Virus record (IMG/VR): IMGVR_UViG_3300027970_000044
Location: 1 to 47,146 of that record
Reading direction: 5' to 3' (one strand)
DNA length: 47,146 bases
From: a virus
The notes beneath the pieces were generated by a model. That model worked only from the letters and a program-made list of their open reading frames with translations. It was not told the DNA's origin and did no database searches. The translations under genes and the position numbers were made by a program. Shown in pieces: positions 4,162 through 47,146 of the stretch. How positions within the stretch are numbered: position 1 is the first letter of the stretch; each line of letters starts with the position of its first letter.

Positions 4162-4167
4162 TTACAC
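4162..4167 (-). promoter_or_regulatory. GTGTAA element after terminator, upstream of 77-aa gene
   Basis: Minus strand TTGTGTAATAGCATTTAGG. It follows the hairpin at 4182-4201 directly, so a stop of one transcript is followed at once by a start signal for the next. Confidence 0.55.
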
Positions 4168-6604: not shown

Positions 6605-7195
6605 TTAATTATTTACACTAAATAGTCTTTTTAGAAAATTATTATACATTCTCGAAAAATAAGAAGTGTTTTTAAATACCGCAGATCTAACTTTATTATC
6701 TGACTGAACGCCGCCACCAGACCTTCCAGAATTAGATCTTGAAATAAAATATCCCAATCCACTTATTCCTTTTTCTATTCCAGTTAGCCAACTTCTACCA
6801 GCAGCCCATGGTATTGGCGTTTTATTTTCAAATTCGTCCATTGAAGGAACGAAAACCTTAAAAACAATTTGACCATATGGCTTACCCCTTTCAGATTTTC
6901 CAGATCCAACCATTCTTATTTTATTTATTAAATTTTTAACAATTTCAGTGGGTTTTGAGCCACCATTAAAACCTATGAAAGAAAAAATATTCCCGTAGCC
7001 CCCCAAGGTTCCGGAAGTATTTTCGCTACTTTCGCCAGCGTCCATTTCCTCTGTGACAGAATGCGATTCAAATTCATTTAAAAATTGCTTTCTTTCATCT
7101 TCAAGTTTACTCTCAGCTATCTCCAATGCTGCACTTTTTATTTCTGACAAGTTTCCAATGTTGAGTCGCAAAGTTTTTTTATCTAACGTAGCCAT
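6605..7195 (-). CDS. Tail completion/neck protein candidate, 196 aa
   Basis: Residues 1-50 are helical and charged. A Gly-rich region (LGGYGNIFSFIGFNGGS) precedes a compact domain with IPWAAGRSWLTGIEKGISGLG and SNSGRSGGGVQSD, then NTSYFSRMYNNFLKRL. The last two phrases resemble proteins found between adaptor and tail tube genes in many uncultured phages; an HK97 gp10-like tail completion role is possible. It follows the head-closure candidate by 10 bp. Confidence in coding is high; in function it is low. Confidence 0.82.
   Translation of the reverse strand: MATLDKKTLRLNIGNLSEIKSAALEIAESKLEDERKQFLNEFESHSVTEEMDAGESSENTSGTLGGYGNIFSFIGFNGGSKPTEIVKNLINKIRMVGSGKSERGKPYGQIVFKVFVPSMDEFENKTPIPWAAGRSWLTGIEKGISGLGYFISRSNSGRSGGGVQSDNKVRSAVFKNTSYFSRMYNNFLKRLFSVNN
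6613..6618 (-). promoter_or_regulatory. GTGTAA element upstream of 281-aa neck gene
   Basis: Minus strand TAGTGTAAATAATTAAAAATATG. It begins 18 nt before the start at 6600 and lies within the 3' end of the upstream gene, so it drives an internal re-start of the operon if active. Confidence 0.5.
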
Positions 7196-8227: not shown

Positions 8228-8233
8228 TTACAC
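8228..8233 (-). promoter_or_regulatory. GTGTAA element upstream of adaptor gene
   Basis: Minus strand TAGTGTAACAATATAATATGG. The first base is 15 nt from the ATG at 8218, which would give an mRNA with almost no leader if this is a -10-type element. Confidence 0.58.
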
Positions 8234-8681: not shown

Positions 8682-9083
8682 TTATCTAAGACTGTCAATT
8701 TGAGCTTGAAAATATCCACTAAGCTGCAGTAAAAAACCCAAAGTAACGGCATCCCCAGTTATAGTTGGCCATTGTAAATTAATTATTTTGGTATTCCTCA
8801 TATTTATTCCAGAGCATGTTATTTGCCCAGATACATCAAGTGCAGAAACGGGACTTTCATTATTTATTCCGACCCCATCTTGATTAACAAAAAGACTACT
8901 AACACCAGAACTATCTGACCCAATCTGTATCCCGCTCCCAAAATAACCAAAACCATTTTCAACATTTAAATTGCCACTAGAAATATGCAAAGCTTCTGAC
9001 GGTTGCTTTGTACCAATGCCAATAGAATCGGAAAAATATCCCGATTTGCTTTCAAATAATTTAGATCTAAATATAGCCGACAT
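8682..9083 (-). CDS. Small tail-fibre-like protein, 133 aa
   Basis: It contains two copies of the fibre-type phrase built on GIGTKQPSEALHIS and GINNESPVSALDVSG, the same motif seen in the large fibres at 14155-15927 and 23571-26968. It ends AVTLGFLLQLSGYFQAQIDSLR, a short coiled-coil-like tail. It lacks a recognisable receptor-binding head and may be a short accessory fibre, or a fragment descended from a longer one. An AAAGGA Shine-Dalgarno-like site precedes the start. Confidence 0.82.
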   Translation of the reverse strand: MSAIFRSKLFESKSGYFSDSIGIGTKQPSEALHISSGNLNVENGFGYFGSGIQIGSDSSGVSSLFVNQDGVGINNESPVSALDVSGQITCSGINMRNTKIINLQWPTITGDAVTLGFLLQLSGYFQAQIDSLR

Positions 9084-9422: not shown

Positions 9423-10320
9423 TTCTGGAAATAAAATAATCTCTTATTTCCTTTTCGAATTTTTTACCACTTTCTGACAAGCATAACACTCCGTTATTGC
9501 ACTCTAAATCTTTTTCAATGTTAAATCCTCTTTCATTAAAAATTCCCAGCCTAACAGTGTAGTTTCTTTCTTTTATTTGACCATGATAATTATGCATTAT
9601 TAATCCATCTAAATAATCTACTTTTGCATCTTTGGATTTTTCGCAATAGTCTCTGTACACATTACCCAATAATCTATAATGGAAATGTCCAAAATTTTGT
9701 TTAATTGCCTGTGCTAAAAACCCATCACCACCTCCGACAATACACTTGTCGCATAACCCACCAATTTTATCATAAAAATTCTTGTTTATGCACCACACAT
9801 GCCCAGAGTGACTAAGGGTATTAGGTTTTTTTTGCATTTTTGGGTCGATAAACCATTCACAAAAACTTGTAATAGTATTATAACCCTTTTCTCTAAAATA
9901 TTCATTATTTTCGTGAGATATTTTAAAGTTATTGTCCAGATAGAGGCAATCAGTAAACGGTTGAATGATATCACAGTGTTTTAATTTTTCGATACTTTCT
10001 AATGCCCAATTTGGATTAGCAAACTGTATATCTCTATCTATCCAACAACCATATTGCCAATTTTCTAGACTAGAAAATCCTATGTTTATTAAATTTTCCT
10101 TAACCCATAATACATCGTGCAATTTTACTTTTATATGCTTAAAAACCTGATCTCCGAAATCATCTAACCGAGCATTTTCATCTATAAATCCTTCGACAAT
10201 TATTAATTCAGCATTAGAATATGATTTAAAGTTTTTTAAAAATATATTTAAATTTCGTTCGTTACTTTTATAACCAACAAAATTAAAATAGGGAAGTATT
10301 ACGTATAATTTATCATTCAT
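9409..10320 (-). CDS. GT-A type glycosyltransferase-like protein, 303 aa
   Basis: Probably transfers a sugar from a nucleotide-sugar donor. Residues 91-100 contain GCWIDRDIQF, whose DRD (95-97) fits the metal-binding DXD of GT-A enzymes, and the N-terminal LYVILPYFNFVGY matches the first strand of such folds. VGGGDGFLAQAI at about 195-206 fits the acceptor-side motif of GT2-like enzymes. No membrane segment, so cytoplasmic. Its start overlaps the stop of the next gene upstream (ATGA), which indicates translational coupling with the second glycosyltransferase. It may decorate the virion or alter the host surface; the acceptor is unknown. Confidence 0.78.
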   Translation of the reverse strand: MNDKLYVILPYFNFVGYKSNERNLNIFLKNFKSYSNAELIIVEGFIDENARLDDFGDQVFKHIKVKLHDVLWVKENLINIGFSSLENWQYGCWIDRDIQFANPNWALESIEKLKHCDIIQPFTDCLYLDNNFKISHENNEYFREKGYNTITSFCEWFIDPKMQKKPNTLSHSGHVWCINKNFYDKIGGLCDKCIVGGGDGFLAQAIKQNFGHFHYRLLGNVYRDYCEKSKDAKVDYLDGLIMHNYHGQIKERNYTVRLGIFNERGFNIEKDLECNNGVLCLSESGKKFEKEIRDYFISRNEDE

Positions 10321-11036
10321 GGTACTCTTGGATAGAATATGAATTTTGGTTTATTCTTTTTACCCCGTTTTGAGGGAATATTATCTATTATTTTTTTATC
10401 TAAGATATTTATAAAGTCTTTTGCCATTTGACTAGCATTTTCTCTAGAATAATTTGTATGATATGGATGATCAATAGTATATGAATAATCTCTTATAATT
10501 TTTTTTCTTTTCAATTTGCAATAAGCTCCAAATAGAGAACATATGCCCCATCCAAATTTGGTTTTTAGATATTCTTCCCAATTTGATTGAAATTCTTTTA
10601 AAATATCTTTACCGATAAACCAAGCCGTACAATCAGTGGCTGTTACATTTTTTAAATTATAATCTTCTTCTAATCCTTCATTGTCGATATCTACAATGCT
10701 GGAATGATATTGAGTAAAATCTACGTTCGGAGCATATATGCCATAATTGTATTTAGTATAATAATGTCGCGCAGAGTCTACAACAGGCTTCCAATCATGA
10801 TAGGTTGCATCGCCTTGAACGTGCATCATTACATCACCATCAAACATTTTACAGGCAGTAACAAATTGTTCTGCGAAATATGCGTCTTTATCTAAATTTA
10901 TCCAACTATCTTTCTTATAATCTTCATAACTATTAATCACAGTAACATTATCAAAGATTTCCAAAAGCTGCGATTCAGTTCGCAAAGTCTTCTCATATTG
11001 ACCTTTCCAGTTGAATATAAATGGATGAATTTTCAT
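10317..11036 (-). CDS. Second glycosyltransferase-like protein, 239 aa
   Basis: The phrases MMHVQGDATYHDW (70-82), YGIYAPNVD (98-106) and VTATDCTAWFIGKDIL (131-146) resemble a GT-A domain in which QGDA takes the place of the DXD and TDCTAWFI forms the acceptor strand. It is shorter than typical enzymes and ends in a basic tail. The start codon immediately follows the U-tract of the terminator hairpin at 11048-11084, with no Shine-Dalgarno sequence. It heads a three-gene operon with 9409-10320 and 9201-9422. The donor and acceptor are unknown. Confidence 0.7.
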   Translation of the reverse strand: MKIHPFIFNWKGQYEKTLRTESQLLEIFDNVTVINSYEDYKKDSWINLDKDAYFAEQFVTACKMFDGDVMMHVQGDATYHDWKPVVDSARHYYTKYNYGIYAPNVDFTQYHSSIVDIDNEGLEEDYNLKNVTATDCTAWFIGKDILKEFQSNWEEYLKTKFGWGICSLFGAYCKLKRKKIIRDYSYTIDHPYHTNYSRENASQMAKDFINILDKKIIDNIPSKRGKKNKPKFIFYPRVP

Positions 11037-16030: not shown

Positions 16031-16516
16031 TTAATTTTTTTCAACCTCTACATTTAATATGTACTGATTAGAGCTTAAAAAGTCGCTAAATGTTATTAAA
16101 AAACCTTCATTTGTTATTTCAGAAATAGAATGTTCGTAAACTATTTCATCAATATTATTTTCTATAAAGCAATAAATAGAAACTGGATCCTTGTCCAAAG
16201 CCTCAGGATAATTAATTCTTAACTCATCAATGCCATATGGAAGCTGAATTTGAAAATTTATATTATCTTCTGCATTCAATTGAACCAAGGTAAGAATTTC
16301 TTGTTTCAATTGGTTTAGCGCATTTAAAACAGGATTCGAAACAGGCTTATCTATGTCTTTAGTATTATCTACGTTTTGCAGACCAATTGAAGCTGCGTCT
16401 ATAGTGACAAAGCCCACCTTGCCATTAATTGATCGAACTGGAGATGAAGAAACCTCTAAAATTACAGTTTTTTCAATTACGTTCTCTTCTAAAACTGTTA
16501 CAACTTGATTAACCAT
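16031..16516 (-). CDS. Short tail fibre or fibre tip protein, 161 aa
   Basis: Residues 27-63 carry the classical fibre phrase VRSINGKVGFVTIDAASIGL then QNVDNTKDIDKPVS, found at trimer attachment regions of many phage fibres. A short coiled coil (NALNQLKQEILTLVQLN) follows. The last 75 residues (FQIQLPYGIDELRINYPEAL ... GFLITFSDFL) align by eye with the C-terminal domain of the 590-aa fibre. It lies between that fibre and the BppU-like gene, so these three probably act together at the tail tip or baseplate. Confidence 0.85.
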   Translation of the reverse strand: MVNQVVTVLEENVIEKTVILEVSSSPVRSINGKVGFVTIDAASIGLQNVDNTKDIDKPVSNPVLNALNQLKQEILTLVQLNAEDNINFQIQLPYGIDELRINYPEALDKDPVSIYCFIENNIDEIVYEHSISEITNEGFLITFSDFLSSNQYILNVEVEKN

Positions 16517-16561: not shown

Positions 16562-16909
16562 TTAAATTTGAGTTACATCCTGAATAACGCTCAATTCGCC
16601 CTTTATATATGTTTTAGTGGATTGATCTTTTATTATCTGCAAATCATAGTCGTAGGAAGCCTGCGGCATTTTCATTCTATCTCCAGTCACTAAATTTAAA
16701 ATAATATCAGGATGGTCAACTTCAATAGAATCATCTTCTGTAGACCAAAATAAAACCACCACGCCGTTTTTTTTATTTTTCACCTGTAGATCTATTCTAG
16801 CTTCCGTAAAGTCAAGATAATTACCTTCGCTATCTTTAAACTTGAAAGTCAAAGGTCCATAACTATCTCCTCTGTAAGCATCTGGTAAGTTGTAATTTCC
16901 TGGAATCAT
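16562..16909 (-). CDS. BppU-like N-terminal domain protein, 115 aa
   Basis: The sequence fits a small beta-sandwich found in baseplate upper proteins and many phage attachment proteins: AYRGDSYGPLTFKFKDSEGN at the start, IDLQVKNKKNG, a STEDDSIEV strand, QASYDYDLQIIKD, and ending GELSVIQDVTQI. In that family this domain anchors receptor-binding subunits. It precedes two fibre genes in the same direction. A GTGTAA element and the capsid gene terminator lie upstream. Confidence 0.78.
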   Translation of the reverse strand: MIPGNYNLPDAYRGDSYGPLTFKFKDSEGNYLDFTEARIDLQVKNKKNGVVVLFWSTEDDSIEVDHPDIILNLVTGDRMKMPQASYDYDLQIIKDQSTKTYIKGELSVIQDVTQI

Positions 16910-16950: not shown

Positions 16951-16956
16951 TTACAC
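16951..16956 (-). promoter_or_regulatory. GTGTAA element after capsid terminator
   Basis: Minus strand TAGTGTAATTTTAAATTGTAC, between the major capsid terminator (16988-17016) and the start at 16909. It would restart transcription for the fibre genes. Confidence 0.55.
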
Positions 16957-18818: not shown

Positions 18819-20465
18819 TTAGAAAAGTTTTATTTTTACAGTTTCGCTATTGAAAGCTTTTGCAAATTTTTCTCTTAAAGTTTCAGAACTTGAAGCACCA
18901 TTATTAGGAAGATTAGATTCATTAGCCTCAGCTCTTTCCAAAACTTCAGTAGCCTCTTCTTCTATTTTTTCTTTATCGTTTATCAATTCAACTTCCGCAG
19001 AAGCTTCACTCTCTTTTTCTGAAACTTTCTTTTCATTTTTTTGTTTCATCTCGGTCATGAATTTTTTATTCTTGCCCTTGGCGAAAACGTTAAAAGCGTT
19101 ATACCATTTGTCAAAACTGTCTGAGTCGAGATCCGCAATTTGCGAACCAATTATTTCACGCTCTTCTGGTGTTAACTCAAATTCTTCATCAAGAGTAGTC
19201 ATTCTGTTTTGAAAAGATTCCTCTTTTTCTTTAGCGGCAACTTGCTCCTTAATTTGATCAAGCTCAGATTGAAGCTTTGAACTTAATTCGCTAACTTCGG
19301 ATAATTTTTGCTCAAGAGTCAATCTTGCTTGTTCGATTTCAGCAAGAGCATCTTCTTTTTGCTTTTTTTCTTCCGAGAATTTTTCACTAGCTTTTTTGAT
19401 CTCTTCTTCGAAGAGAGCCTTTACGTCGCTAGCAGAAACATTCTTCAAGGAATCCTCTGTTAGATCTTTAATAGATTTGATTATCATATTTTTTTCTATA
19501 GTCTTATTGTTAATATTTTCTTTTTTTTGAGATGCGCCAGAAGCAGCAATTTGCTCATTCTCTAATAAATTTTCAAAATATATAATGCTTTTTACATCTT
19601 TTTCTTCAACATGGGAACTAGATGATTCTATTTTTAATTTATTTAATTGATTTTCAACATTCAAATCGTCACTACCAGCAACCTTAACGCCCTTAACATC
19701 AGCCGCTGGACGCTCGGTAAACCCAATGCCCAACGGCAAAACTTCGCCTATCAAGTTAAGATAAATTTTTTGACCATCTTGATCTGATCCCATTCCACCA
19801 AAATGAGAGAGGTTATTTTTTAATTTCTCTATCTCAGATTGTTCAGAAATAATAACAGCTTCATTTAAATTTTTTGATCCCCTTGCTATTGAAAAGTTTT
19901 TAAAACCCATTTCCCAACTTGTTGATATAGTTAAGTAAGAATCAGAAGAGGGGTCGGACGAAGCTTCGAGCTTTTCAGCAAATTCCTCATCAACAACTCT
20001 CCATACAAAACCGCTAAGAACAACATTGAACGGATCTCTCTTATCTTTAACCTCTTCAAGAGTCAAAGGCTTATCTGTGCCATACTCACTAAATCCATAT
20101 CCAGTTATTAACCCAGCAACATTTTTTCTTTTATGCTCAATATTCATTGGCTTGAATTTAAAATTCTCAACCGAAGAAAGAGCTACATCGGTAGAAATTA
20201 CTTGCCCATTTTTATTTGCCCTATTGACAACAAAAGCATTGAATACCACGCCAATTAAATCATAATTTTTTTCTAAATCAATTGAAGAATCAAGAAAAGG
20301 CTTTAAAGAATCAATTCCAGCCTTGGCAATATTAACATCATCATTCTCTGGTAAAAATACCCTAACAGGATCAGAAGCAAAAACGGTTTCGAATGGAAAA
20401 TTAATTTTCAAGGAAGGAACATATTCCTCATTGATTAAAATATATAGATTTTCAAATTTAGGCAT
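18819..20465 (-). CDS. Capsid maturation protease fused to scaffold, 548 aa
   Basis: Residues 1-270 form a prohead-protease-like domain. It contains FKPMNIEHKRKNVAGLITGY with His111 as candidate catalytic base, and YLTISTSWEMGF with Ser181 or Ser183 as candidate nucleophile, the pattern of Mu I/XkdF-like proteases. Residues about 330-430 form a long Glu/Lys coiled coil (DALAEIEQARLTLEQKLSEV), followed by an acidic segment, which is the scaffold part expected in fusion proteins of this kind. The C-terminal SSETLREKFAKAFNSETVKI may bind the capsid protein. It directly precedes the decoration and capsid genes. Protease assignment rests on motif spacing and position. Confidence 0.8.
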   Translation of the reverse strand: MPKFENLYILINEEYVPSLKINFPFETVFASDPVRVFLPENDDVNIAKAGIDSLKPFLDSSIDLEKNYDLIGVVFNAFVVNRANKNGQVISTDVALSSVENFKFKPMNIEHKRKNVAGLITGYGFSEYGTDKPLTLEEVKDKRDPFNVVLSGFVWRVVDEEFAEKLEASSDPSSDSYLTISTSWEMGFKNFSIARGSKNLNEAVIISEQSEIEKLKNNLSHFGGMGSDQDGQKIYLNLIGEVLPLGIGFTERPAADVKGVKVAGSDDLNVENQLNKLKIESSSSHVEEKDVKSIIYFENLLENEQIAASGASQKKENINNKTIEKNMIIKSIKDLTEDSLKNVSASDVKALFEEEIKKASEKFSEEKKQKEDALAEIEQARLTLEQKLSEVSELSSKLQSELDQIKEQVAAKEKEESFQNRMTTLDEEFELTPEEREIIGSQIADLDSDSFDKWYNAFNVFAKGKNKKFMTEMKQKNEKKVSEKESEASAEVELINDKEKIEEEATEVLERAEANESNLPNNGASSSETLREKFAKAFNSETVKIKLF

Positions 20466-20495: not shown

Positions 20496-20501
20496 TTACA
20501 C
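20496..20501 (-). promoter_or_regulatory. GTGTAA element upstream of protease/scaffold gene
   Basis: Minus strand TTGTGTAAAAAGCTATTACAA, about 36 nt before the start at 20465. No other copy occurs before the decoration and capsid genes, so it probably serves all three up to the terminator at 16988. Confidence 0.55.
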
Positions 20502-28681: not shown

Positions 28682-28987
28682 TTAATTTTGAGCAGTTAAG
28701 CCAGCCCAGAATTTTCCATTCCCACTTGAAACGGCTCTAACTTCAGTCATTGGAGTTGTTAAATAAGTTGGCTCAGCATAACCAGTCGTAAGACCAGTAA
28801 AGCTGTAAAAGCTCACCCAACTATTTTCAAAAAATGGACTTTTGTATTGCAGAGTTACTGATCCATCTCCGCTTGCGTAAGTAGTGAATCCAACATTTCT
28901 TGCTCGCGCGATATTCACAGATTCACCAGTAAATGGAGCTTGTTCGCCAGTTAAAAGAAGTTTTGTTTGTATAAGAAAATGATCCAT
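28682..28987 (-). CDS. Small beta-rich protein of the fibre cassette, 101 aa
   Basis: Begins DHFLIQTKLLLTGEQAPFTG and contains GDGSVTLQYKSPFFENSWVS. The sequence is beta-rich without transmembrane segment or cysteines. It lies between two beta-helix fibres and may be a virion accessory protein, but no family is recognised. A GTGTAA element lies 16 nt from its start. Confidence 0.78.
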   Translation of the reverse strand: MDHFLIQTKLLLTGEQAPFTGESVNIARARNVGFTTYASGDGSVTLQYKSPFFENSWVSFYSFTGLTTGYAEPTYLTTPMTEVRAVSSGNGKFWAGLTAQN

Positions 28988-28997
28988 AATATGATTG

Positions 28998-29003
28998 TTA
29001 CAC
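28998..29003 (-). promoter_or_regulatory. GTGTAA element upstream of fibre operon
   Basis: Minus strand AAGTGTAACAATCATATTATG, with the first base 16 nt from the ATG at 28987. It begins a run of tightly coupled fibre genes down to 22514. Confidence 0.58.
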
Positions 29004-30207: not shown

Positions 30208-32211
30208 TCAAGAATGCTTACTGTGATAAAGAATACATGCGGCTCTCTGATCCAGCTGATGATATTCTGACAATTCTTCTATTTTTTCAAAAAAACTTTC
30301 TTCCATCTGAGCTGGGTTGTTAATGAAAAGTGGTAATTTCAACTTCCAATCTTGGATTTCACAATTTGAAGCTATGGCTAAAGACAACTCGCCAACGACC
30401 TCTTTTTGAACTTTATTTAGTTTTTTAATTTTAAATTTTTCTTTCAAAGCCTGCTCAATATCTTTTTCTAAAGATGAGAAATTATCTAAAACTTCTTTCA
30501 TTTTCACACAACTAAATTTTAATTCAGCCGCTGAAACAGATTGCTTTCTATTTTGCAACTGTTTTGTTCCACCTCCAGAAGGTCTACCAACATTACTAGT
30601 CGGACTCTTAGTTCCACCACTCGATCCTGGCTCCGCATTTCCATCTTGCTTTTGACCGCCAACAAGAGGAGTATAATAACCCTTATCCCTCAAGTCTTTA
30701 AATCTTTTTTGAGATTCTACGCTTTCGTCAAAACTCGGAAGTCTTCCAGTTTCAAAAACGCCAAGTCCCTCTTCTGGAGTAAGTACACCAAGTTCAATTA
30801 ATCTAGAATAAACTCTACTCATTAAAACATTGTCCTCAAAATCAATATCCTCAAATTTAGCAGAAGGCATTTGTTTAAATCCAAGTTTTTTACCAATTTC
30901 ATTCATTTCCGGAATCAAGAAATCTCTCAAGAATTTTTCCCTACCATATTTCAAACGAGCAAAAAATACCTTTACTTTAATTGAAGTATTTGAAAACTTT
31001 TCTTCACCAAAAAGAATACTATTTAATCCCATCCTTATATCATTATCAAGAATCTCATATTTTTTTGGATCCAAAAGATTGCCAATATCTGGAATAACAA
31101 ACTTTGCATTTGTAGTATAATCAGCAACTAGCACCTTGCCAACGCTCTGATTTTCAAACAATTTACGCATAGATGAAATATTTTTCTCACTAGGCATACC
31201 AACCTTTTCATCCCCCATTGTCAATAGTAAAACAGCTTGCTGAACGGATCTAGCAATAGCTCTATCTATTTTTTTAAGTTCTAGCTTTGCATTAATATCC
31301 TCAAGCACGGCAAAGCCCATTGGTACAGAAAGCGGCTCGTAATTTTGCTTTTTATAGAAAATTGCAACAAGTCTTTCGACATCCAGCTTCAGAGAAACAT
31401 TATTAATCCCATTAGTTCTATTATTCTTTTTAGAACCAGATTCTATCAACTGTTTGATTTCTGGAATTTTTTCAGCAATTTTTTTATCAGATTCGGTCTT
31501 GGGATTAATCAAAGCCTGAAGTTCATAATTATTAAGAACCTTCACATACACATTATCAAGAAATGAAGAGGATGTAATTATGTTTATATCAGCTGGATTA
31601 AGTATAATATACTTGACTGGAATCGACATGTCGGACTGCGCCTCAGAATCAGCCCCAAAAGCCTCTTGAATTTTCATCATATTTTCCCGACTGAAATCAG
31701 CCCTGAATTTATACATAAAAATATTTCCACTTCTGTAAAACTCCCTATAAAATTGATCTTGCAAATCCCAGCAATTAATCTTATTAAGCCACAGATTAAA
31801 AAACTTCCTACTTTGTTCATTTCCTCCCGTTAAATAAACATTTGAAATACTAAACTCAGTCATCAAATCTATTGTATTTCTGAATATCGGGACGTTCCAG
31901 TATGCCTTTTGACAAAGAATGATTGAATCTTTTGCAGATATGTTAGAATCATAATTTCCTCTACCGCTATTATACAAAAAAGGAACAACTCCCTTTTCTA
32001 AATTCGAAAATCTATCCGATTGAGATACGGTCGATGCTGAATTTCTCCTACTCGACGTCCTCCCTGAATCAAAAGATTCGCAGCTAGCCCTAGCATTATC
32101 GAAAGAACCCAGAGAAGCGATTGCAGCCTCAGGAATTTCAACGGCTTTTTTTGCATTTGACCTGGTCGAGGTAATCTCGGATTTTTTATTTTTTTGATTT
32201 TCTGTTGGCAT
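30208..32211 (-). CDS. Portal protein, 667 aa
   Basis: Forms the DNA-entry ring at one vertex of the head. The first 65 residues are Ser/Arg-rich and probably disordered. The core contains FRNTIDLMTEFSISNVYLTG, LQDQFYREFYRSGNIFMYKF, the crown/stem region FFARLKYGREKFLRDFLIPE and VYSRLIELGVLTPEEGLGVF, typical of phage portals, and a Gly/Ser/Pro-rich linker leads to a helical C-terminal domain of about 110 residues. It is long for the family because of both tails. It directly follows the large terminase gene. Confidence 0.88.
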   Translation of the reverse strand: MPTENQKNKKSEITSTRSNAKKAVEIPEAAIASLGSFDNARASCESFDSGRTSSRRNSASTVSQSDRFSNLEKGVVPFLYNSGRGNYDSNISAKDSIILCQKAYWNVPIFRNTIDLMTEFSISNVYLTGGNEQSRKFFNLWLNKINCWDLQDQFYREFYRSGNIFMYKFRADFSRENMMKIQEAFGADSEAQSDMSIPVKYIILNPADINIITSSSFLDNVYVKVLNNYELQALINPKTESDKKIAEKIPEIKQLIESGSKKNNRTNGINNVSLKLDVERLVAIFYKKQNYEPLSVPMGFAVLEDINAKLELKKIDRAIARSVQQAVLLLTMGDEKVGMPSEKNISSMRKLFENQSVGKVLVADYTTNAKFVIPDIGNLLDPKKYEILDNDIRMGLNSILFGEEKFSNTSIKVKVFFARLKYGREKFLRDFLIPEMNEIGKKLGFKQMPSAKFEDIDFEDNVLMSRVYSRLIELGVLTPEEGLGVFETGRLPSFDESVESQKRFKDLRDKGYYTPLVGGQKQDGNAEPGSSGGTKSPTSNVGRPSGGGTKQLQNRKQSVSAAELKFSCVKMKEVLDNFSSLEKDIEQALKEKFKIKKLNKVQKEVVGELSLAIASNCEIQDWKLKLPLFINNPAQMEESFFEKIEELSEYHQLDQRAACILYHSKHS

Positions 32212-32246: not shown

Positions 32247-32252
32247 TTACAC
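32247..32252 (-). promoter_or_regulatory. GTGTAA element upstream of portal gene
   Basis: Minus strand ACGTGTAAAATATTATTATAT, about 40 nt before the start at 32211, in the gap after the terminase gene. Confidence 0.58.
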
Positions 32253-34191: not shown

Positions 34192-35124
34192 TCAAATAAG
34201 CTTATGATCCAATAAATATTGAAAGTCTAAGTTCTTAGCATCGTCCTTGTTCATAGATAATATTTTTGGAATTAAATCAGAAGATTCAGCCCTACCACCT
34301 GAAAAGCAAAATTGTACATTTTCTGGAAAATTCTTGCATACATCCCTAAATCTATGAAATATAAAATCGGGAGAGGCTTTTGCAAATTTACCAGTTCTTG
34401 AATATGAAAATGATAAAAATTTATTAATATCGCATTCAATTACAACGACTATATATCCACCAATAGATTTAGCCCTCTCTATTTCCCTATTAAACCTCTC
34501 GAATCCTGACGATAGAGTCGAAACTAAATCGCTCAGAGACTTTCTTTCAACAGCTAAAATTCTATCGCAGGAATAATCTCCGAAGTCTAATTTTTCATTA
34601 ATTACATCAAAATTTTTCAATTTTATAGGCTTCTGTTCCCTAGTGTCAACGGTTATGTTTTTCTTATGAATAAAATTAAAATTTAATTCATTTTTATTGT
34701 AATTGTATCTTCTTTTTAAGCCGCAAGAATCTATAAACGCATTAAGGTCATCAAAGAAAAATTGGTAAGTCTTCATTGAGGGAAGATAGGATATTGTTCT
34801 CATCTCTGAGGATGATGGGAAATGGCATACACTTTTTAATTCAGAATGCGCAATAATTTTATACAATAGAAAATCTTTCGCTAAGCCGTCCTTTTCATTC
34901 TTTAGCCAAGCCAACATATTTTTTTTGTTTGCAAAATCTGTCAACAGATATTGTTCGAAACTCTTAAAGTCAATCGCCTCTGTCGTTAGTAAATCGCGCT
35001 TATTTATATTAAACTTGCAATAATTATCTATCTTTAATTTATGAACTTGTTTCACATGCTTGACAAATTCATCCTTATCCTTGGACAAATACCCGCAATT
35101 AGAATCTTTACATAAAAAATCCAT
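34192..35124 (-). CDS. ERCC4/XPF-type nuclease with N-terminal zinc finger, 310 aa
   Basis: The catalytic part has the ERCC4 signature: ITVDTREQKPI (Asp160), FGDYS (Asp183) and VERKSLSDLVSTL (Glu193-Arg-Lys). It probably cuts branched or structured DNA, in replication, recombination or before packaging. Residues 5-28 (CKDSNC ... HVKQVH, with Cys5, Cys10, His23 and His28) fit a C2H2 zinc finger, an unusual addition for a phage ERCC4 protein. It sits directly before the terminase gene and may debranch DNA before packaging, a task done by endonuclease VII in T4. Confidence 0.87.
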   Translation of the reverse strand: MDFLCKDSNCGYLSKDKDEFVKHVKQVHKLKIDNYCKFNINKRDLLTTEAIDFKSFEQYLLTDFANKKNMLAWLKNEKDGLAKDFLLYKIIAHSELKSVCHFPSSSEMRTISYLPSMKTYQFFFDDLNAFIDSCGLKRRYNYNKNELNFNFIHKKNITVDTREQKPIKLKNFDVINEKLDFGDYSCDRILAVERKSLSDLVSTLSSGFERFNREIERAKSIGGYIVVVIECDINKFLSFSYSRTGKFAKASPDFIFHRFRDVCKNFPENVQFCFSGGRAESSDLIPKILSMNKDDAKNLDFQYLLDHKLI

Positions 35125-36310: not shown

Positions 36311-37027
36311 TTAAATTTCCTTGACAAGGTTTTGAGCTATTCTATATATTTTATTCTTTATTTTTTTAATTTGCTTATATCCTGGAGATCTATTTTTCTC
36401 GCTTGTTTTATAACCCATTAATTTTGCGGTTTCGTATTCAGTTTTATTTTCTACGTAAATAAAATTATAAATCTTCCATTCTATTAAACTTAATTGAGTT
36501 TTAATTTTTTTATGGAAAGATTCGATCTCACTATCGTAATCAAAATAAGAATAAGTATCACGTATTTCAATGGGAGGAGAATTTTCTTCACCATTATTAA
36601 ATTTATTATCATTAATACTCAAGGGCATCTTAATTTCTTGAGCAGATTTTTTACTCTTTTCCCATTTTGAAAAATCCGCGCATTCTGAATTCTGAATTGA
36701 GTGTAAAGCACAAAGATTTCCCCCCTGATTGTGAGGACACTGCATACAAGGCTTAACAAAGTAAGAATAATTATTCCTTATCAAATTAGTCATTTGATTC
36801 GAAATAATTCTATTGAGCCAAGGTCTTAATGGTCTGCTGAAGTCCCACTTATCCCATTTACTAAATATATGAAGTCTAATTTTTTGACAAACGTCGTCAA
36901 AATCCATCCAAGCAATGGCGTTAAGTCGCCACTTTGATCTTCTTTTGCTAAGCTCTTCATTTATTATTTCAAAACATGATTCGTAAGATGGTCTGTTTTC
37001 CAAATCTAAATCTTCTTCATTTTGCAT
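36311..37027 (-). CDS. Sigma-70-family-like transcription factor with Cys cluster, 238 aa
   Basis: Probably directs host RNA polymerase to phage promoters. Region-2-like sequence: WMDFDDVCQKIRLHIFSKWD, KWDFSRPLRPWLNRIISNQM and TNLIRNN (about 40-86), the pattern DxxDVxQxxxLxxxxxxxxFxPxxPxxxWLxxIxxN of ECF-type sigma factors. An insert follows with Cys94, Cys97, Cys106 and Cys116 (CMQCPHNQGGNLCALHS), a likely zinc site not usual in sigma factors. The C-terminal part (about 170-237) looks like region 4: LSLIEWKIYNFIYVEN, TEYETAKLMGYKTSE and a basic recognition-type helix. It is the natural candidate to read the GTGTAA elements. Confidence 0.8.
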   Translation of the reverse strand: MQNEEDLDLENRPSYESCFEIINEELSKRRSKWRLNAIAWMDFDDVCQKIRLHIFSKWDKWDFSRPLRPWLNRIISNQMTNLIRNNYSYFVKPCMQCPHNQGGNLCALHSIQNSECADFSKWEKSKKSAQEIKMPLSINDNKFNNGEENSPPIEIRDTYSYFDYDSEIESFHKKIKTQLSLIEWKIYNFIYVENKTEYETAKLMGYKTSEKNRSPGYKQIKKIKNKIYRIAQNLVKEI

Positions 37028-37050: not shown

Positions 37051-37542
37051 TCACTCTATTTCAATATGTCTTTTTGTAGAAGAAGCCTCAGCTTTAAACT
37101 CCTCAAGAACTTGTTCTCTTGTTTTTTTAAATTCAAAATTTTCAAATTTAAAATCATTCGAATCAGATGGCGAAGATGACGCCTCCTGCATTAAAGATCC
37201 GAATGAAATACCTTTATTTTTTTCATAACCTTCAACCGAAACCCCAGCGCCAGGTTTTATACTTGAGATAATAGAATGCAAATCAGAACAATAATATTCT
37301 TGATCACTGTTGTCGTCCTCACTTTCAAATTCGTCAACTTCAATTTTTTTAATACTTTTTGGAATCTTTTTAATTTCCACATTTCTAGTTTTCGAATTTT
37401 CCTCGCTTTGAGGCATTGACGCGCTGATATTTTTTTTAACTGTAGAGTCAGAAGATACTTTAGTTCCACATTCTTGGCAAAATTTCGGTTTAGAAAACTT
37501 ATATTCGCTTTTTGAAAAACAATTTGAACAATAATAATTCAT
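37051..37542 (-). CDS. Zinc-ribbon protein with acidic disordered tail, 163 aa
   Basis: Residues 4-25 form a Cys4 zinc ribbon (YYCSNCFSKS ... FCQECGTKV). The rest is low-complexity, with an acidic run (VDEFESEDDNSDQEYYCSD) and a helical end (TREQVLEEFKAEAS). It starts at the divergent interval shared with the plus-strand metallopeptidase and precedes the sigma-like gene by 24 bp. A regulatory or transcription-associated role is plausible by context, but the sequence shows only the metal-binding module. Confidence 0.8.
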   Translation of the reverse strand: MNYYCSNCFSKSEYKFSKPKFCQECGTKVSSDSTVKKNISASMPQSEENSKTRNVEIKKIPKSIKKIEVDEFESEDDNSDQEYYCSDLHSIISSIKPGAGVSVEGYEKNKGISFGSLMQEASSSPSDSNDFKFENFEFKKTREQVLEEFKAEASSTKRHIEIE

Positions 37543-37587
37543 ATATTTAATTATATATAAAACATTTTGTTAATCAAAAATAAAAAA

Positions 37588-37593
37588 GTGTAA
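37588..37593 (+). promoter_or_regulatory. GTGTAA element upstream of plus-strand metallopeptidase
   Basis: Plus strand AAGTGTAAATATTTTAAATG. The first base is 15 nt from the ATG at 37603. Here the element is on the plus strand, in agreement with the gene. Confidence 0.62.
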
Positions 37594-37602: not shown

Positions 37603-38253
37603 ATGAAAATAAATATTTCAAACCAGCTCAAAATAAAAAACTTCGTAAACTTTGTTAAAAGTAAATTATCCGAAAAAGATGGAAAATTAATACTGAGAAA
37701 TAAAATAGCAAATGGTGGAACGCAAGATGGTGAATTTTGCGAGAAAACAAATACAATAAGGTGCAAAAAAAATAATAATTCATATTACTGGCTGGGAGTT
37801 TTAGCGCATGAATATTCTCATTTTATTCAATCGTCAAATAAAACTAAATTTTGGACGAATTTTCAAAAAAATATTAACAAATTAAAAAATGTAGATGTTA
37901 TTTTAACTGCTAAAGATTCGGCAAGAAAAGAAAGTTTTAATAAAAAAGATAGAGAAAAAATAGTTTCATCAATAATTGATATGGAGCTAGAATGTGAAAA
38001 AATGGCTCTAGAATTTGTAAAAAATTTCGACCTGCCAATAAATAAAGAAGAATATATAATTTTATCAAATGTTATATTCTATAAATATTTATATTGGGCG
38101 GAATACCAGATCTGGCCATCTTTCAAAACATCGTCAATAAAAAAATGGGACGAAGAGCTGATTAAAAAAATGAAAACTTTCGGAAATCGCCGCAGTTATA
38201 AAAATTTTTCAGAAATACCGCTGAGTGTCTTAGTTTGTTTTGAAAATACTTAG
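37603..38253 (+). CDS. HExxH zinc metallopeptidase, 216 aa
   Basis: VLAHEYSHFIQ (His69, Glu70, His73) is the zinc and catalytic motif. MELECEKMALEF (Glu128 or Glu130) offers the third ligand expected of gluzincin or ImmA/WLM-type peptidases. No signal peptide or TM segment, so it acts in the cytoplasm or virion. Basic, Lys-rich overall. It is isolated on the plus strand between two minus-strand units, with its own GTGTAA element. Its substrate is unknown; phage ImmA-like peptidases often cut regulators. Confidence 0.83.
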   Translation: MKINISNQLKIKNFVNFVKSKLSEKDGKLILRNKIANGGTQDGEFCEKTNTIRCKKNNNSYYWLGVLAHEYSHFIQSSNKTKFWTNFQKNINKLKNVDVILTAKDSARKESFNKKDREKIVSSIIDMELECEKMALEFVKNFDLPINKEEYIILSNVIFYKYLYWAEYQIWPSFKTSSIKKWDEELIKKMKTFGNRRSYKNFSEIPLSVLVCFENT

Positions 38254-38255
38254 TA

Positions 38256-39128
38256 TTAATTTTCAAAAATCGGCTCCACTCTGCGTCTGTCCTCAATGGC
38301 TTTAATACTCGGCTTTTTAATTAGTCCAGTTTTTTCCATTACAAATCTAAGCAGTCCAGATCTTACTATGTCATTGTATTCTCTTAATTCAAAACAACTT
38401 ATTCCAAATTCACGACTTTCTTCGTCGTTAAACATTTCAAACATTTTTCTGAAACCAGACTTTGAACCAATATCATTCTGATTAATAGAGTCACCTACGA
38501 AAAAAATTCTTGTAAACTCACCACATCTAGTCAAGACAAGAAAGAGATCGTCCCAAGTCATAGAACTAGCCTCATCAACGATAATAGCCTTGCAATTCCA
38601 AGAGCGCCCTCTCACAAAACCTACCGGATAGCAATTAATTCTATTATCTTTCTTCAACTTTTGAATGTCTGACTCCGGTAACATTTCTTCCAACTTATCA
38701 AAAAGAATAGCATTGTAAGGAGCCATTTTTTCCTCACTAGTACCTGGAATAAAACCAATTTTACCGGTAGTAGAAGACTCTACAGGATTTCTAATAAAAA
38801 TAATCTCATCTATTTTTTTATCATTAAGTAATTTTAAAGACGAGTAAACGCTAAGATAACTTTTAGATGTTCCATACAGGCCGTCTATAAAAATACATTT
38901 AGTACCGCGCTTTGTTGCAACTTCAACTATTTCTTTTTGCTTTTCAGTCAAATCATTTCGCGCTTTAATATTTAATGAAAAACTAATTTTAGGTCTTTGG
39001 GTCACATGCATTGACTTATCTTGCCTATCTTCCGATACATTCCGTACAGCGTCAATCTCGGAATTTTTAGTTTTAACTGCCGCCCGGCTAGATGTTTTAC
39101 GCACCCTTAAGTTTTTATTTTTCGACAT
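38256..39128 (-). CDS. phoH: PhoH-like ATPase, 290 aa
   Basis: A P-loop ATPase of the PhoH family, common in environmental phages. The Walker A is GLYGTSKS (83-90), where the usual GTGKT is changed to GTSKS. Walker B is AIIVDEASSMT (181-191; usual DEAQN). Family landmarks IRNPVESSTTGKIGFIPGT and YPVGFVRGRSWNCK (here RGRSW instead of RGRTL), and VGDSINQND, are in the right order. The first 60 residues are a basic, disordered extension. Its role is unsettled (RNA-linked or phosphate-response). It ends 2 bp from the end of the convergent metallopeptidase gene. Confidence 0.92.
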   Translation of the reverse strand: MSKNKNLRVRKTSSRAAVKTKNSEIDAVRNVSEDRQDKSMHVTQRPKISFSLNIKARNDLTEKQKEIVEVATKRGTKCIFIDGLYGTSKSYLSVYSSLKLLNDKKIDEIIFIRNPVESSTTGKIGFIPGTSEEKMAPYNAILFDKLEEMLPESDIQKLKKDNRINCYPVGFVRGRSWNCKAIIVDEASSMTWDDLFLVLTRCGEFTRIFFVGDSINQNDIGSKSGFRKMFEMFNDEESREFGISCFELREYNDIVRSGLLRFVMEKTGLIKKPSIKAIEDRRRVEPIFEN

Positions 39129-39144: not shown

Positions 39145-39150
39145 TTACAC
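39145..39150 (-). promoter_or_regulatory. GTGTAA element upstream of PhoH gene
   Basis: Minus strand GGGTGTAAATATTTATAAAAA, 22 nt before the start at 39128. Together with the plus-strand copy at 39196 it makes a divergent pair 45 bp apart. Confidence 0.6.
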
Positions 39151-39195: not shown

Positions 39196-39201
39196 GTGTA
39201 A
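39196..39201 (+). promoter_or_regulatory. GTGTAA element upstream of plus-strand protease island
   Basis: Plus strand TTAAGTGTAAAAATCAAAATGG. The first base is 14 nt from the ATG at 39210. Confidence 0.62.
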
Positions 39202-39209: not shown

Positions 39210-39767
39210 ATGGAATCAAGTAATAAAAGTATAAAACTAGGATTGCCAGCTCGCGCAATAAATGAGCCCGAAAGCGCCGTTGTTGCAAACGCTGGCGCAC
39301 CAGCTGAATCTATTGGTGACTTTAATTTTATCAATGGCATTTATTTATCAAATGGCAAATTGGGGGGCAAAATTAGTTTCGAAAAAACTGTCGTACTAGG
39401 GTCTTACCCTTATAAGACGCTTATTAATTGGAATAAGGATTTTAAATATTGGATTATCTCATTCCTTGGTGGACCAACATATACTCATCCATTTGAGGAA
39501 GAATCCCTAATCTATCCTGATTCGTACGAGATAAAACCAGGAGACGTGATTTATTCACCAGCATATCAATACATATCTTTTTCCGATGTTGAGACGCCAG
39601 ATCTGGCTCAGAATTGGATAAAGTCATTTGAATATGGAACAGTCTCAACCCCACAAGTACTTTTAAAATACAAATATTCAAACTTTAACAATGTGGAAAA
39701 CCCAAGTCAAGCTGGTATTTTTAATTTAAGGTATGAAAATGGAAGCATCGACTGGGCCGCAAATTAA
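39210..39767 (+). CDS. Hypothetical beta-rich protein heading the protease island, 185 aa
   Basis: Not recognised. Starts MESSNKSIKLGLPARAIN, and residues 45-180 are rich in aromatic and beta-prone residues (FKYWIISFLGGPTYTHPF, DSYEIKPGDVIYSPAYQYIS). No signal peptide, no cysteines. Its N-terminal KLGLP phrase resembles the KKLGLS near the start of the next protein, perhaps a shared targeting or docking segment. A virion-surface or protease-partner role is an open question. Confidence 0.82.
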   Translation: MESSNKSIKLGLPARAINEPESAVVANAGAPAESIGDFNFINGIYLSNGKLGGKISFEKTVVLGSYPYKTLINWNKDFKYWIISFLGGPTYTHPFEEESLIYPDSYEIKPGDVIYSPAYQYISFSDVETPDLAQNWIKSFEYGTVSTPQVLLKYKYSNFNNVENPSQAGIFNLRYENGSIDWAAN

Positions 39768-39799: not shown

Positions 39800-41185
39800 A
39801 TGGAAAACAATAAATTAAAAAAATTAGGACTATCAAATGTTTGCCCCTCTCTCTGTTACGAAGGAACAAGCGATTTGGAAACCACAATTGTAGCTCAAAG
39901 TAATTATAATTCAAGTAGCAGAATCATGACTTTTAATGTAAAAAATAATTTTACATATCCTGTTTGGTTACATACGTTGCCGATAGAGCCTACGGAAGGC
40001 GGAGAGATACAAAATCCAGGATTATTCAAAGTTAAAAAAAACAATGAAGAAGTTTTGTATCAGGGAAGAATATCTGCGGCTAGCCGTGTCCATAGTTTAG
40101 AATTTTATAGCAAAATAGAGCCAGGCGAAACATATTCATTCGAATTCAATCCTGGTCTTTCATTTGAAATGCAAGACGCTGGAAGTTATTCAATAGAATA
40201 TATTGGTGATTTAAATTATTTAAAATATGATCCCATAGCCGCCAAAGTAGCAAGCGATGAAGAAAATTCAACCATTTTTTTTCCAGAAATTTCTAGTGAG
40301 CAAATTGAATCGGGTCAACCTGGTTCAAATCTAGAGTCGCCTATTTCAAATTTTACATTAAACAACGATACATCTGGGTCAACAACGATAAATAATGAAG
40401 TATTAACGCCCGTCTCCACGCAAGCTACTTTCGTAACAGCTCCACTCGCGTCAAGTTCATTGGCAATTTCAAGTATTTCTGAAGAATCAATTGAAAGTAA
40501 ATATGATTCCACAAATGCATTCTTTCTTTCAACTGGTGGAGTCGCATGGACCGAGACATCTAAAAGAGAAGTAATCGGAGCCAGAGTATATTCAAAGTAT
40601 TACGCAGATAGAGGCGCTTCAGCAGCTCATCCTGGAAAATATTTCGAAAGATGGTTCGGAGAAGGCGGTCATAGAAATGAATGTACAAATGTTTATATAG
40701 ATGGAAACTGCGTAGGAATAGGTAATAAAAGATTTAAATGTCGTTTGACTGGACGCGAAGGATGGAAAAATAATAAAGCGGGCTGCAATGCAGAATGCGG
40801 CAAATGGGAAAGAAGATGCAAAACTGTTTCAACACAGCCTGAGAGAGCGAATCGCGTCAGAGGAGCTTGTCAAAACAATTCAAGCATAAGTGGCTCTAGA
40901 TATATCAATTGGATTAGAGAAAGTTGTCCAAGAGGCTATTTAGCTTACGTTTATTCTGATAGACCAAATCATGTATGGCTTTGCAATTATTGTTATTTTT
41001 ATAATGGTGCTGGTTATATATCAGGCGAATTAATTGAAACAATATTGCACGAATTTTTTCATCACGCGGGGGTAACGCAAGACCATGCCTATGGAACACA
41101 AGAATGTTTAAGTTTAGCTAGAAATAGTCAGGTAAAGGCATTGAACAATGCAGACAGTTATACTTATTTTAGCATGCGAGCTTAA
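39800..41185 (+). CDS. M35-type (Asp-zincin) metalloprotease, 461 aa
   Basis: The C-terminus carries the full M35/lysine-specific metalloendopeptidase pattern: TILHEFFHHAGVTQDHAYGT (His417, Glu418, His421, Asp428 as third zinc ligand in GxTxDxxYG) and, 24 residues on, ALNNADSYTYFS. The N-terminal part (about 25-135, FTYPVWLHTLPIEP ... VLYQGRISAAS ... IEPGETYSFEF, DAGSYSIEYIG) matches the beta-sandwich prodomain of bacterial and fungal M35 enzymes. A Ser/Thr-rich linker follows, then a Cys-rich middle (about 295-390). These proteases are normally secreted, but no signal peptide is present here, so delivery with the virion or release at lysis is likely. It lies between an unknown protein and a serine protease. 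Confidence 0.87.
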   Translation: MENNKLKKLGLSNVCPSLCYEGTSDLETTIVAQSNYNSSSRIMTFNVKNNFTYPVWLHTLPIEPTEGGEIQNPGLFKVKKNNEEVLYQGRISAASRVHSLEFYSKIEPGETYSFEFNPGLSFEMQDAGSYSIEYIGDLNYLKYDPIAAKVASDEENSTIFFPEISSEQIESGQPGSNLESPISNFTLNNDTSGSTTINNEVLTPVSTQATFVTAPLASSSLAISSISEESIESKYDSTNAFFLSTGGVAWTETSKREVIGARVYSKYYADRGASAAHPGKYFERWFGEGGHRNECTNVYIDGNCVGIGNKRFKCRLTGREGWKNNKAGCNAECGKWERRCKTVSTQPERANRVRGACQNNSSISGSRYINWIRESCPRGYLAYVYSDRPNHVWLCNYCYFYNGAGYISGELIETILHEFFHHAGVTQDHAYGTQECLSLARNSQVKALNNADSYTYFSMRA

Positions 41186-41210: not shown

Positions 41211-42728
41211 ATGACTACAGAACAAATATTAGACTTTATAAATCAAAACCCTCAATTTGATTTAAAAGGAGCTGGCATTCAAAGAAAGAATGTAAATGGA
41301 CAGTTTACAGAAGAATTGGCGCTAGCGTTATATGTTAGTGAAAAAAAATCTGTTGATAAAATTCCTGAAAATGAAATTATTCCCGATAAGATATTTGTTA
41401 CTGGCTTAGGCTGGGTTAAAACTGACGTAATGGAAGGTGACAATGTAATTGAAGAATGTGCTGATTGCGATGCCACAACTTTTGCCACAGGCTCTCGCGG
41501 GGGATTTATAAGACCGAATAGAAATGTAAATAGACCGGTTCGTGGAGGCGTTTCAATTTCATCAATCCCAAGTGGAACATCTACACATCGAAATACAAAT
41601 TATTTAGGAACATTGGGCTTTATTGCTGTAGATGCACTTGACGATTCGCTTGTAGCCGTAACCAACCATCACGTTGGATCATTCAATTCAGAAATTCCAG
41701 TGGTCGGAGGCGGCACTTCTGGCGCTGCTGGAACATCGGCTCATTACAGAACCATTGGATCTACTAAATTTCTAAACTCGACAGATGTTTATAATTTTGA
41801 TCAATATAGAATAGAGCAGTCCCAAAAAAATGATTTTGCCGCCAATATGTACTATAGGAACAGTAGCTTTGGCACTGCTGCTACTTATTATCCAGATGGA
41901 AGATATGAAAAAGCTCTAACCGTCGGGTACCTTAAAAGATACATGCCAATTAGCACTAGCAATAATTTTTTAGATTGCTGCGTAATTGGTTTGAATCAGG
42001 AAACTGTTACGGGCATTGTTTCAGTGCCAAATGCAGCTAATACTCAGTCCCTTTTAGTAGATCTAGGTAAAAACGTCATCGGCACAAACTCTTGGCAAGT
42101 TCTTAATCATGATTTGATGAACAACCAAATATATTATCCGTTCGCAACAACAGACGAAATAAACTCAATGACGGGGATAGCTTTTAGAAGTCAAAATACA
42201 CCAGCTACTCCAAATATGGTCATAGCAGGAAGGTCAACTGGCTTAAAAGGTCAGCCCAACAATCCTTTGGCTGTGCCTACAAATGCATCATGCCTATTAC
42301 AAGTAATAAACAATAATTTTATAGTAAATGCTTTAAATTTGCAAAATACGATAAGTAATTTCGTAAATTGTATAACTTATACATGGAAATCTTGTACAAA
42401 TACAGCCAGCTCAGTAGGTGGAGATTCAGGATCTGCCGTACTTGGAAGATTCGACGGCATTTGGAAAATTGTTGGGATACACTTTGCCGCCAGTACTTCT
42501 AGCAAAGAGGGTAGAGGCATTAGAATAGACAACATAGCGCCGCTTTTAAAAATAAAACCATACATGGGTCAACCTGTAAATAATCCAGTTACTGGCGGGG
42601 TAAGCAATAGAAGAACTTTAATTGTAAAAAATAAACAATCAGTTCCATTTTTTACACACACCGATGGTCGCACGTATTACCAGATGGGAACAACAACCGG
42701 CACTTCAAATTTGAATAACATCCCTTAA
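41211..42728 (+). CDS. Trypsin-fold serine protease, 505 aa
   Basis: Catalytic triad candidates are His154 in VAVTNHHVGS, Asp255 in NNFLDCCVIG and Ser406 in SVGGDSGSAVLG, with the later WKIVGIHFAAS strand that closes the specificity pocket. The first 80 residues (NGQFTEELALALYVSEKK, IPENEIIPDKI, KTDVMEG) match the N-terminal domain of bacterial Nal1-like or S1-type proteases that start with a self-blocking beta domain. No signal peptide. It is 26 bp downstream of the metalloprotease gene and likely co-transcribed. Function could be virion-associated digestion of host surface proteins or processing of phage proteins. Confidence 0.87.
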   Translation: MTTEQILDFINQNPQFDLKGAGIQRKNVNGQFTEELALALYVSEKKSVDKIPENEIIPDKIFVTGLGWVKTDVMEGDNVIEECADCDATTFATGSRGGFIRPNRNVNRPVRGGVSISSIPSGTSTHRNTNYLGTLGFIAVDALDDSLVAVTNHHVGSFNSEIPVVGGGTSGAAGTSAHYRTIGSTKFLNSTDVYNFDQYRIEQSQKNDFAANMYYRNSSFGTAATYYPDGRYEKALTVGYLKRYMPISTSNNFLDCCVIGLNQETVTGIVSVPNAANTQSLLVDLGKNVIGTNSWQVLNHDLMNNQIYYPFATTDEINSMTGIAFRSQNTPATPNMVIAGRSTGLKGQPNNPLAVPTNASCLLQVINNNFIVNALNLQNTISNFVNCITYTWKSCTNTASSVGGDSGSAVLGRFDGIWKIVGIHFAASTSSKEGRGIRIDNIAPLLKIKPYMGQPVNNPVTGGVSNRRTLIVKNKQSVPFFTHTDGRTYYQMGTTTGTSNLNNIP

Positions 42729-45553: not shown

Positions 45554-47146
45554 TTAAATTTTATTACCATATTCATCATAGTATTGGATGGTCGGTTGAC
45601 CGCTTTCAATTCCCTTAAGATGTACTGGTACTTTTATATAATGAGTTGTTCCAGAATCGCAAATTGCTATTACTTTGCCAAATTGATCAATTAAATCATT
45701 TGCAAATGTTAATAAGCATATTGCGGAAGGCTCAAAAAAGTTAATAGTTGGAATATATCCGCAAATAAGAGAGTCAATCAAATCATTAAATTTTGTTTGG
45801 CATTCATTTATTGATCCATAAATAGAACCTTCATTTATCTTATCTATTATTTCGCACGTATTATTAGCTACGAACTCAAGTATTCCGCTCTTAATGCAGC
45901 TATCAGCGCCACCACCGGTATCGATAAATTTTTCGAAAAGCTCGCACTTGTTCACATCTACGAACTCAAGTATTCCGCTCTTAATGCAGCTATCAGCGCC
46001 ACCACCGGTATCGATAAATTTTTCGAAAAGCTTGCAATTGTTCACATCTACGAACTCAAGTATTCCGCTCTTAATGCAGCTATCAGCGCCACCACCGGTA
46101 TCGATAAATTTTTCGAAAAGCTTGCAATTGTTTGTGTCAACGAAATCCAATATCGCGTCCTTTGCGCATGCAGTTTTCAGTAACTTGTCTAAAAAACCGC
46201 CGCTATTAATAGTTATTGGGGCTATACCGCAACCAAAAGTAACTGTTTTATCGGCACAGGGATCTTCCAATGCTTCATTTACCTTCTCAGCAAGTTCCTT
46301 AAGAGTTTCATTAATCAAAGTCCCTAATCCTGGAATAGATATACTACCGCCAGCAGTGTATCCGCATGCACCCGCGCTAGCTTTAATACTAAATCCATTT
46401 ATAAGAGTGCAAGGAGTTGCTTGTGAAAAAGATATATTAAGTGAATCAAAAACACTATCTAAAACTTGATCTCTAATTTCTTTAATTGAAGAATAAATAC
46501 CGCCAGCTTCGAATACTAGTCCTGGAACGCATTCAGCCAGTGGACCCGTCATACTAATTGATGCATTTGCACTTCCGTTTAAATAAGAACAAGGGTCCGC
46601 GTTCAACGCGGCAGCAATCGTAGAGAAAACGCTTTCCGCCGTTTTACTAACAGCTTCATTGACTGTTACGCCTATTCCTAAAGAAGGATTTGCATTGGAG
46701 CAAGCAGAATGAGGACCACTAGGAGTTAAACTCACATTCCCAACTGAAATCATTTGACAAATATTTTGATTAAATACTGTATTTAAAGTGGCATATATAG
46801 TATCTTGAATATCACTTGAAAAAGTCTTAGCTGCCAAATTTACTGGAATATAAACTGGGCAAGATCCAGATCCTGAACATGGGTCAGAAAGAGCAGAAGA
46901 CAAATTAAGAGAAACAGCCGAATGTATTGGATATGAGATTGATGAAGCAGAAGAAGAACACGGATCTTGAGAAAAATCAGTTGTTAGATTTTGCATTACA
47001 GCGTCTTCGCATATGCTGCAATCAGCAGGCGCTCCGTCGTCTCCCTTTGGTCCCTGTGGTCCCTGTGGTCCAACGTCTCCGTCAGCTCCGTCGTTTCCGG
47101 CGTCTCCCTTTGGTCCCTGTGGTCCCTGTGGTCCCTGTGGTCCAAC
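45554..47146 (-). CDS. Collagen-like stalk protein with Cys-rich domain, runs off the right edge
   Basis: The frame is open from 47146 to the stop at 45554. The first 39 visible residues are a collagen-like Gly-X-Y stretch ([19 protein letters not shown]...), followed by DCSICEDAV and a long Cys/Ser-rich region. An internal ATG at 46996 is not the start: the collagen triplets continue in frame across it, so the gene extends beyond the window. The region around 45870-46140 has three 30-residue repeats ([20 protein letters not shown]). Virion collagen-like fibres occur in many phages; a trimeric stalk with a globular domain is likely. Over 500 residues are visible. Confidence 0.85.
45871..46140. 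repeat. 90-bp tandem repeat, three copies
   Basis: Three almost identical 90-bp units (starts at 45871, 45961, 46051) encode the [20 protein letters not shown] repeat. Differences between copies are limited to a few bases near the Cys-Lys-Leu codons. Confidence 0.92.

Follow-up and report, generated by a model that had tools for sequence, protein, structure and literature searches.

A probable late sigma factor with a four-cysteine linker in a large clade of uncultivated tailed phages

Detailed knowledge of late transcription from promoters that have a -10 element only comes mainly from phage T4. The T4 factor gp55, which works together with gp33 and gp45, is a phage-encoded region-2 factor that acts on the host polymerase, as P0001, the protein described here, would also be. 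T4 late promoters consist of a -10-like element with no -35 (PMC7892883). A second reference point is provided by the bacterial ECF (group 4) sigma factors, such as CnrH, SigmaE and Mtb SigH, which share with P0001 the arrangement sigma2-linker-sigma4 without sigma3 and are its nearest matches in sequence and fold.

Domain structure and phage lineage of P0001

The window, meaning the whole stretch of DNA that was analyzed, is a 47-kb fragment (47,146 nucleotides) belonging to clade 1 of the lineage described below. It encodes P0001 and, directly upstream, a zinc-ribbon protein, with the following features:

36311..37027 (-): phage sigma factor P0001, 238 aa, ATG start
36758..36982 (-): sigma region 2, residues 16-90, from Pfam and helices in the models
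36680..36748 (-): four-cysteine module, residues 94-116, C-x2-C-x8-C-x9-C, with Cys94, Cys97, Cys106 and Cys116 invariant
36317..36538 (-): sigma region 4 fold, residues 164-237, from structural superposition and the TIGR02937 span
37051..37542 (-): zinc-ribbon protein P0002, 163 aa, a candidate co-factor, directly upstream of the P0001 gene

P0001 is almost certainly a sigma factor. The Pfam family Sigma70_r2 (PF04542) matches residues 40-86 with an E value of 1.7e-6, exceeding the curated cut-off, and it is matched by 34/34 members of alignment A5. NCBIfam TIGR02937 spans residues 33-209 (E 1.1e-6), scoring 28.3 bits, below its cut-off of 42.9; the best-scoring relative scanned reaches 39.0 bits, still under that value. 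Pfam region-4 matches are weak and restricted to a few A5 members, and in the P0001 model residues 163-238 align structurally with solved examples of sigma region 4 (VIA-align; Z score about 9, rmsd 1.6-2.4 Å). AlphaFold models the helices of regions 2 and 4 confidently and the linker, at about residues 89-159, poorly. A Foldseek search of the PDB returned sigma factors as all of the top 50 matches, at E values no better than 4e-3, since the model leaves the relative placement of the two domains free, and the named viral structure matches are mostly sigma factors as well. The length of the protein and the helix layout of the model correspond to sigma2 plus sigma4, without sigma1 or sigma3. By analogy with PMC6411747, a putative -10 specificity loop would lie at about residues 60-70.

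An earlier note on this DNA had described a sigma-like factor with region-2- and region-4-like segments, a description borne out by the Pfam region 2 match, the TIGR02937 span and the region-4 superposition. The AlphaFold model, which the note had proposed as a check, contains both the sigma-2 and the sigma-4 fold. Its further assignment to the ECF type holds for the sigma2-linker-sigma4 build, but P0001 scores below the TIGR02937 cut-off and the promoters considered below share no -35.

The four cysteines that had been noticed between the sigma segments are conserved beyond chance: all four, plus the following KW, are present in 109/109 distinct relatives, down to about 40% identity, while the spacing between the second and third cysteine varies from 8 to 23 residues. 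Judged by its sequence, the module is probably a zinc site. It has low confidence in both P0001 models, which contain no metal, and a deeper alignment brought no gain (pLDDT about 40-50). The zinc-ribbon gene reported directly upstream also proved to be a real ORF, with a counterpart no more than 1.1 kb upstream of the sigma gene in 99/99 loci. P0002 combines an N-terminal CxxC..CxxC with an acidic, variable middle and a short C-terminal segment conserved in most relatives; the conserved sequence makes it a candidate partner of P0001.

Relatives of P0001 occur in hundreds of IMG/VR contigs of aquatic phages, from uncultivated viruses only. A close search yielded 34 loci, a profile scan at least 580 relatives, and a scan aimed at a distant marine clade at least 469, the latter two lists overlapping. 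A tblastn search of 50,697 phage records gave no match, even with the threshold relaxed to E 1, and we found no relative in GTDB species genomes; the best cultured matches of the terminase are just 22-24% identical. In clade 3 the sigma is 49-58% identical to that of the locus L033. The contigs of the relatives reach 205 kb, and one genome, G003, encodes DNA polymerase III alpha, DnaB, a Toprim primase, a RecA-like protein and ribonucleotide reductase. Because G003 carries this replication gene set, we read the lineage as tailed phages relying on the host polymerase. Several genes of G003, at about 19.8-33 kb and at 47.4 kb, are 87-99% identical to those of G008, compared with about 30-65% for core genes, which likely reflects recent exchange.

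Other genes of the window were also annotated. An ERCC4-type nuclease (34192-35124) lies between the sigma and terminase genes, an order kept in relatives. The gene at 39800-41185 contains an M35 lysine-specific metallo-endopeptidase domain (Pfam E 4e-19), and the adjoining gene at 41211-42728 has a weak PHROG protease match (E 6e-9). Two genes encode low-complexity, virion-like proteins: the start of the one at 45554-46996 is flanked by GPQGPKG-like collagen-type sequence, and the one at 16031-16516 has many weak tail-protein matches.

Position and gene classes of the GTGTA element

Across the entire window GTGTAA is not significantly enriched (24 occurrences, 19.1 expected), and whole-window enrichment was accordingly rejected; the signal is confined to upstream regions. 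Just upstream of gene starts in the window, GTGTAA occurs 9 times where 0.54 are expected, and GTGTA 13 times where 1.27 are expected, a count matched by 0/300 shuffles. Upstream k-mers in the relatives give GTGTAG 20 times (0.65 expected) and GTGTAA 24 times (3.5) in clade 1, GTGTAA 101 times (5.6) in clade 2, and GTGTA 133 times (18) in clade 3. By such counts, GTGTA is among the top upstream signals in every subclade tested. The elements listed in the window, all on the basis of upstream enrichment and, where given, of conservation as well, are:

37588..37593 (+): GTGTAA before gene 37603-38253, pointing away from the sigma operon; kept in 34/34 clade-2 orthologues
39145..39150 (-): GTGTAA before phoH, 38256-39128; upstream enrichment
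39196..39201 (+): GTGTAA before 39210-39767; upstream enrichment
32247..32252 (-): GTGTAA before the portal gene, 30208-32211; GTGTA 29/29 in clade 1
28998..29003 (-): GTGTAA before 28682-28987; 19/19 orthologues
20496..20501 (-): GTGTAA before 18819-20465; upstream enrichment
16951..16956 (-): GTGTAA before 16562-16909; 14/14 in clade 2
8228..8233 (-): GTGTAA before 7661-8218; upstream enrichment
6613..6618 (-): GTGTAA 12 nt before 5755-6600, within the preceding ORF; upstream enrichment
4162..4167 (-): GTGTAA before 3882-4115; upstream enrichment

Some of the elements upstream of the window genes 8682-9083, 10317-11036 and 5755-6600 read GTGTATAATAA or TGTATAATAA, in which GTGTA may have merged with a TATAAT -10 of the host type.

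Of 161 distances between GTGTAN and the ATG, measured in ten genomes, 36 are exactly 8 nt, 74 lie between 7 and 12 nt, and a single one is shorter than 7 nt, with a long tail of GTGTA-to-ATG distances out to 80 nt. Clade 3 has the same lower edge, with 36 cases at 8 nt and 20 at 9 nt. Neither a sequence logo nor k-mers 8-40 nt upstream revealed a shared -35 among about 90 deduplicated elements. We are highly confident that GTGTA is a -10 promoter element; the earlier proposal of a GTGTAA promoter without a -35 box is upheld by the enrichment upstream of starts, the -10-like spacing and the lack of a shared -35. Since a -10 element must leave the start codon inside the transcript, the hard 8-nt edge would make the late mRNAs near-leaderless, with start sites that we infer from this edge. 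A Shine-Dalgarno-like sequence is present in 1/53 of these leaders and in 22/335 elsewhere in the same genomes; its scarcity adds little to the near-leaderless reading because it is uncommon elsewhere in these genomes too.

The element is distributed unevenly among gene classes, with replication and virion blocks delimited by homology and position. In seven genomes, GTGTA is found upstream of replication-block genes in 0/57 gaps, compared with 128/652 others (p 1.5e-5). In the packaging/virion block of G003, GTGTAA stands before 10/20 gaps and TTGAC before 0/20, and the corresponding counts in the remaining non-replication region are 11/79 and 23/79. Taking timing from gene class, we read GTGTA as marking late promoters and TTGAC as marking early host sigma70 promoters.

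Candidate readers of GTGTA

A phage-encoded multisubunit RNA polymerase was ruled out as the reader of GTGTA: the beta' family (PF04997) is absent from all 16 contigs searched, while a control matched in 14 genomes. Besides P0001, every searched clade-2 contig of at least 100 kb and the sole 205-kb clade-3 contig encode a second phage sigma of about 195-215 aa in the replication region. Its genes, with a conserved KFSTWLxN loop, include:

G003, 121014-121598 (-): second phage sigma
G001, 74322-74912 (-): second phage sigma
G008, 113497-114144 (-): second phage sigma
G030, 92426-93010 (-): second phage sigma

This protein provides the strongest rival explanation, in which GTGTA is read by the second sigma, which thereby activates the late genes, among them the P0001 operon of clade 2a, and P0001 serves a later or narrower set. 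Its presence in all of these large contigs agrees with such a role, as does the TTGACT-type sequence upstream of its gene in G003 and G001. In clade 2a, GTGTAA takes the place of the host-type promoter of the P0001 operon, an arrangement that fits the second sigma as reader and counts against P0001, for which it needs autoregulation or another starter. That only two promoter-like classes were seen, TTGAC and GTGTA, was also counted for the second sigma. We nevertheless regard this explanation as unlikely. Between G003 and G005/G024, which all use GTGTAA, the region 2.3-2.4 helix is identical at 21/22 positions in the P0001 family but at just 11-12/22 in the second sigma, which thus diverges under a constant motif. 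In G008, where the motif is less strict at its first G, the P0001-family helix is 12/22 identical. P0001 is favored as the reader because conservation of its region 2 tracks the motif, which is not so for the second sigma; the argument favors this pairing and is no proof, given that region 2 also contacts polymerase and G008 is one lineage. A motif shift between clades 2a and 2b was rejected as proof of the pairing, its p value of 0.04 after deduplication being too weak.

Clade 1 provides further evidence against the second sigma, as the P0001 operon there is preceded by a host-type promoter and no GTGTA:

37550..37577 (-): putative host sigma70-type promoter of the zinc-ribbon/sigma operon, TTGATT-N16-TATAAT, in a form conserved in clade 1

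Most clade-1 relatives, and L033 as well, have this form or one close to it at the equivalent position. Taken singly, a match exceeds shuffles by only a moderate margin, and the evidence for this promoter lies in the conservation of its form. Neither the window nor any other clade-1 contig tested yielded the second sigma, but all of them are fragments. Among the long contigs examined, none has the GTGTA motif and provably only one sigma. G025 and G028 carry the motif and the second sigma with no P0001 match, which would count against P0001 as reader, and the terminase region is also missing from them; G022 and G027 start at the terminase, and G031 ends before the second-sigma region. All five are probably truncated, by their gene content, and so cannot assign the reader. 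The earlier note had proposed P0001 as the reader of GTGTAA, a proposal that gains from the region-2 conservation and the clade-1 operon promoter and loses from the second sigma of the large relatives, which was not visible to that note in the 47-kb fragment; we consider the pairing likely.

It is very unlikely that a host alternative sigma recognizes GTGTA and that P0001 has another role. Such a factor is conceivable in the phage host, but GTGTA is kept in all sampled phage subclades, every one with P0001, and GTDB genomes yielded no P0001 relative. Phage sigma appropriators and decoys exist, and P0001 could in principle block the host sigma without initiating transcription; this we find highly improbable, since P0001 retains both the region 2 and the region 4 fold, and the region-2 helix expected at the -10 element is among its most conserved parts. 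Least credible of all is a translation or RNA-processing signal, which the closeness of GTGTA to start codons might suggest, as the sharp 8-nt edge and the tail out to 80 nt agree with a -10 element and the exclusion from replication genes, together with the opposition to TTGAC in one genome, fits promoter classes.

Proposed mechanism and comparison with known systems

Our preferred reading, which we hold to be probable, is that P0001 serves a large clade of uncultivated tailed phages as their late sigma factor. Host RNA polymerase with its own sigma70 would transcribe the early genes and, in clade 1, the zinc-ribbon/sigma operon from TTGATT-N16-TATAAT. P0001 would dock on the host core polymerase via regions 2 and 4, with region 2 reading the -10-only GTGTA and region 4 probably docking on the polymerase flap only, because no -35 was found. 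Transcription of virion and other late genes would begin about 6-8 nt downstream of GTGTA and give near-leaderless mRNAs. Where the sigma2-sigma4 linker begins, the four-cysteine module would probably act as a structural zinc knob close to the template strand and the RNA exit path, and P0002 would be a candidate co-factor. More tentatively, and with reservations, these components may constitute an undescribed two-protein late system, in which a sigma with an obligatory zinc linker module and a zinc-ribbon co-factor uses -10-only GTGTA and most virion mRNAs are near-leaderless across the lineage. We found no precedent for this scheme in a literature search covering few subscription journals.

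If this reading is correct, a late scheme comparable to that of T4 appears in an unrelated and very common uncultivated lineage, with a different sigma, a cysteine module and near-leaderless mRNAs. The sigma, its candidate partner and the promoter are defined closely enough for in vitro testing without a cultured host, and the GTGTA motif offers a means of predicting which genes are late in phage contigs that lack annotation, of which there are hundreds.

In comparison with described phage factors, P0001 and T4 gp55 both have extra structure right after region 2 and possibly a small partner protein. Unlike gp55, P0001 has a region 4, a four-cysteine module, the motif GTGTA and a candidate zinc-ribbon partner encoded next door. 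Membership of the gp55 family was rejected, as region 4 is retained and hhalign found no homology to a single gp55 sequence (probability 0.2). PHROG 1740 and other annotated phage sigma factors show a weak region-2 match to P0001, which for PHROG 1740 covers just 45 residues (E 0.0017). P0001 differs from the ECF sigmas in its four-cysteine linker insert, in its score under the TIGR02937 cut-off and, if it reads GTGTA, in its -10-only promoters. In its mode of action the P0001 scheme resembles late transcription in T4, and the protein itself has the build of an ECF factor to which a cysteine module has been added.
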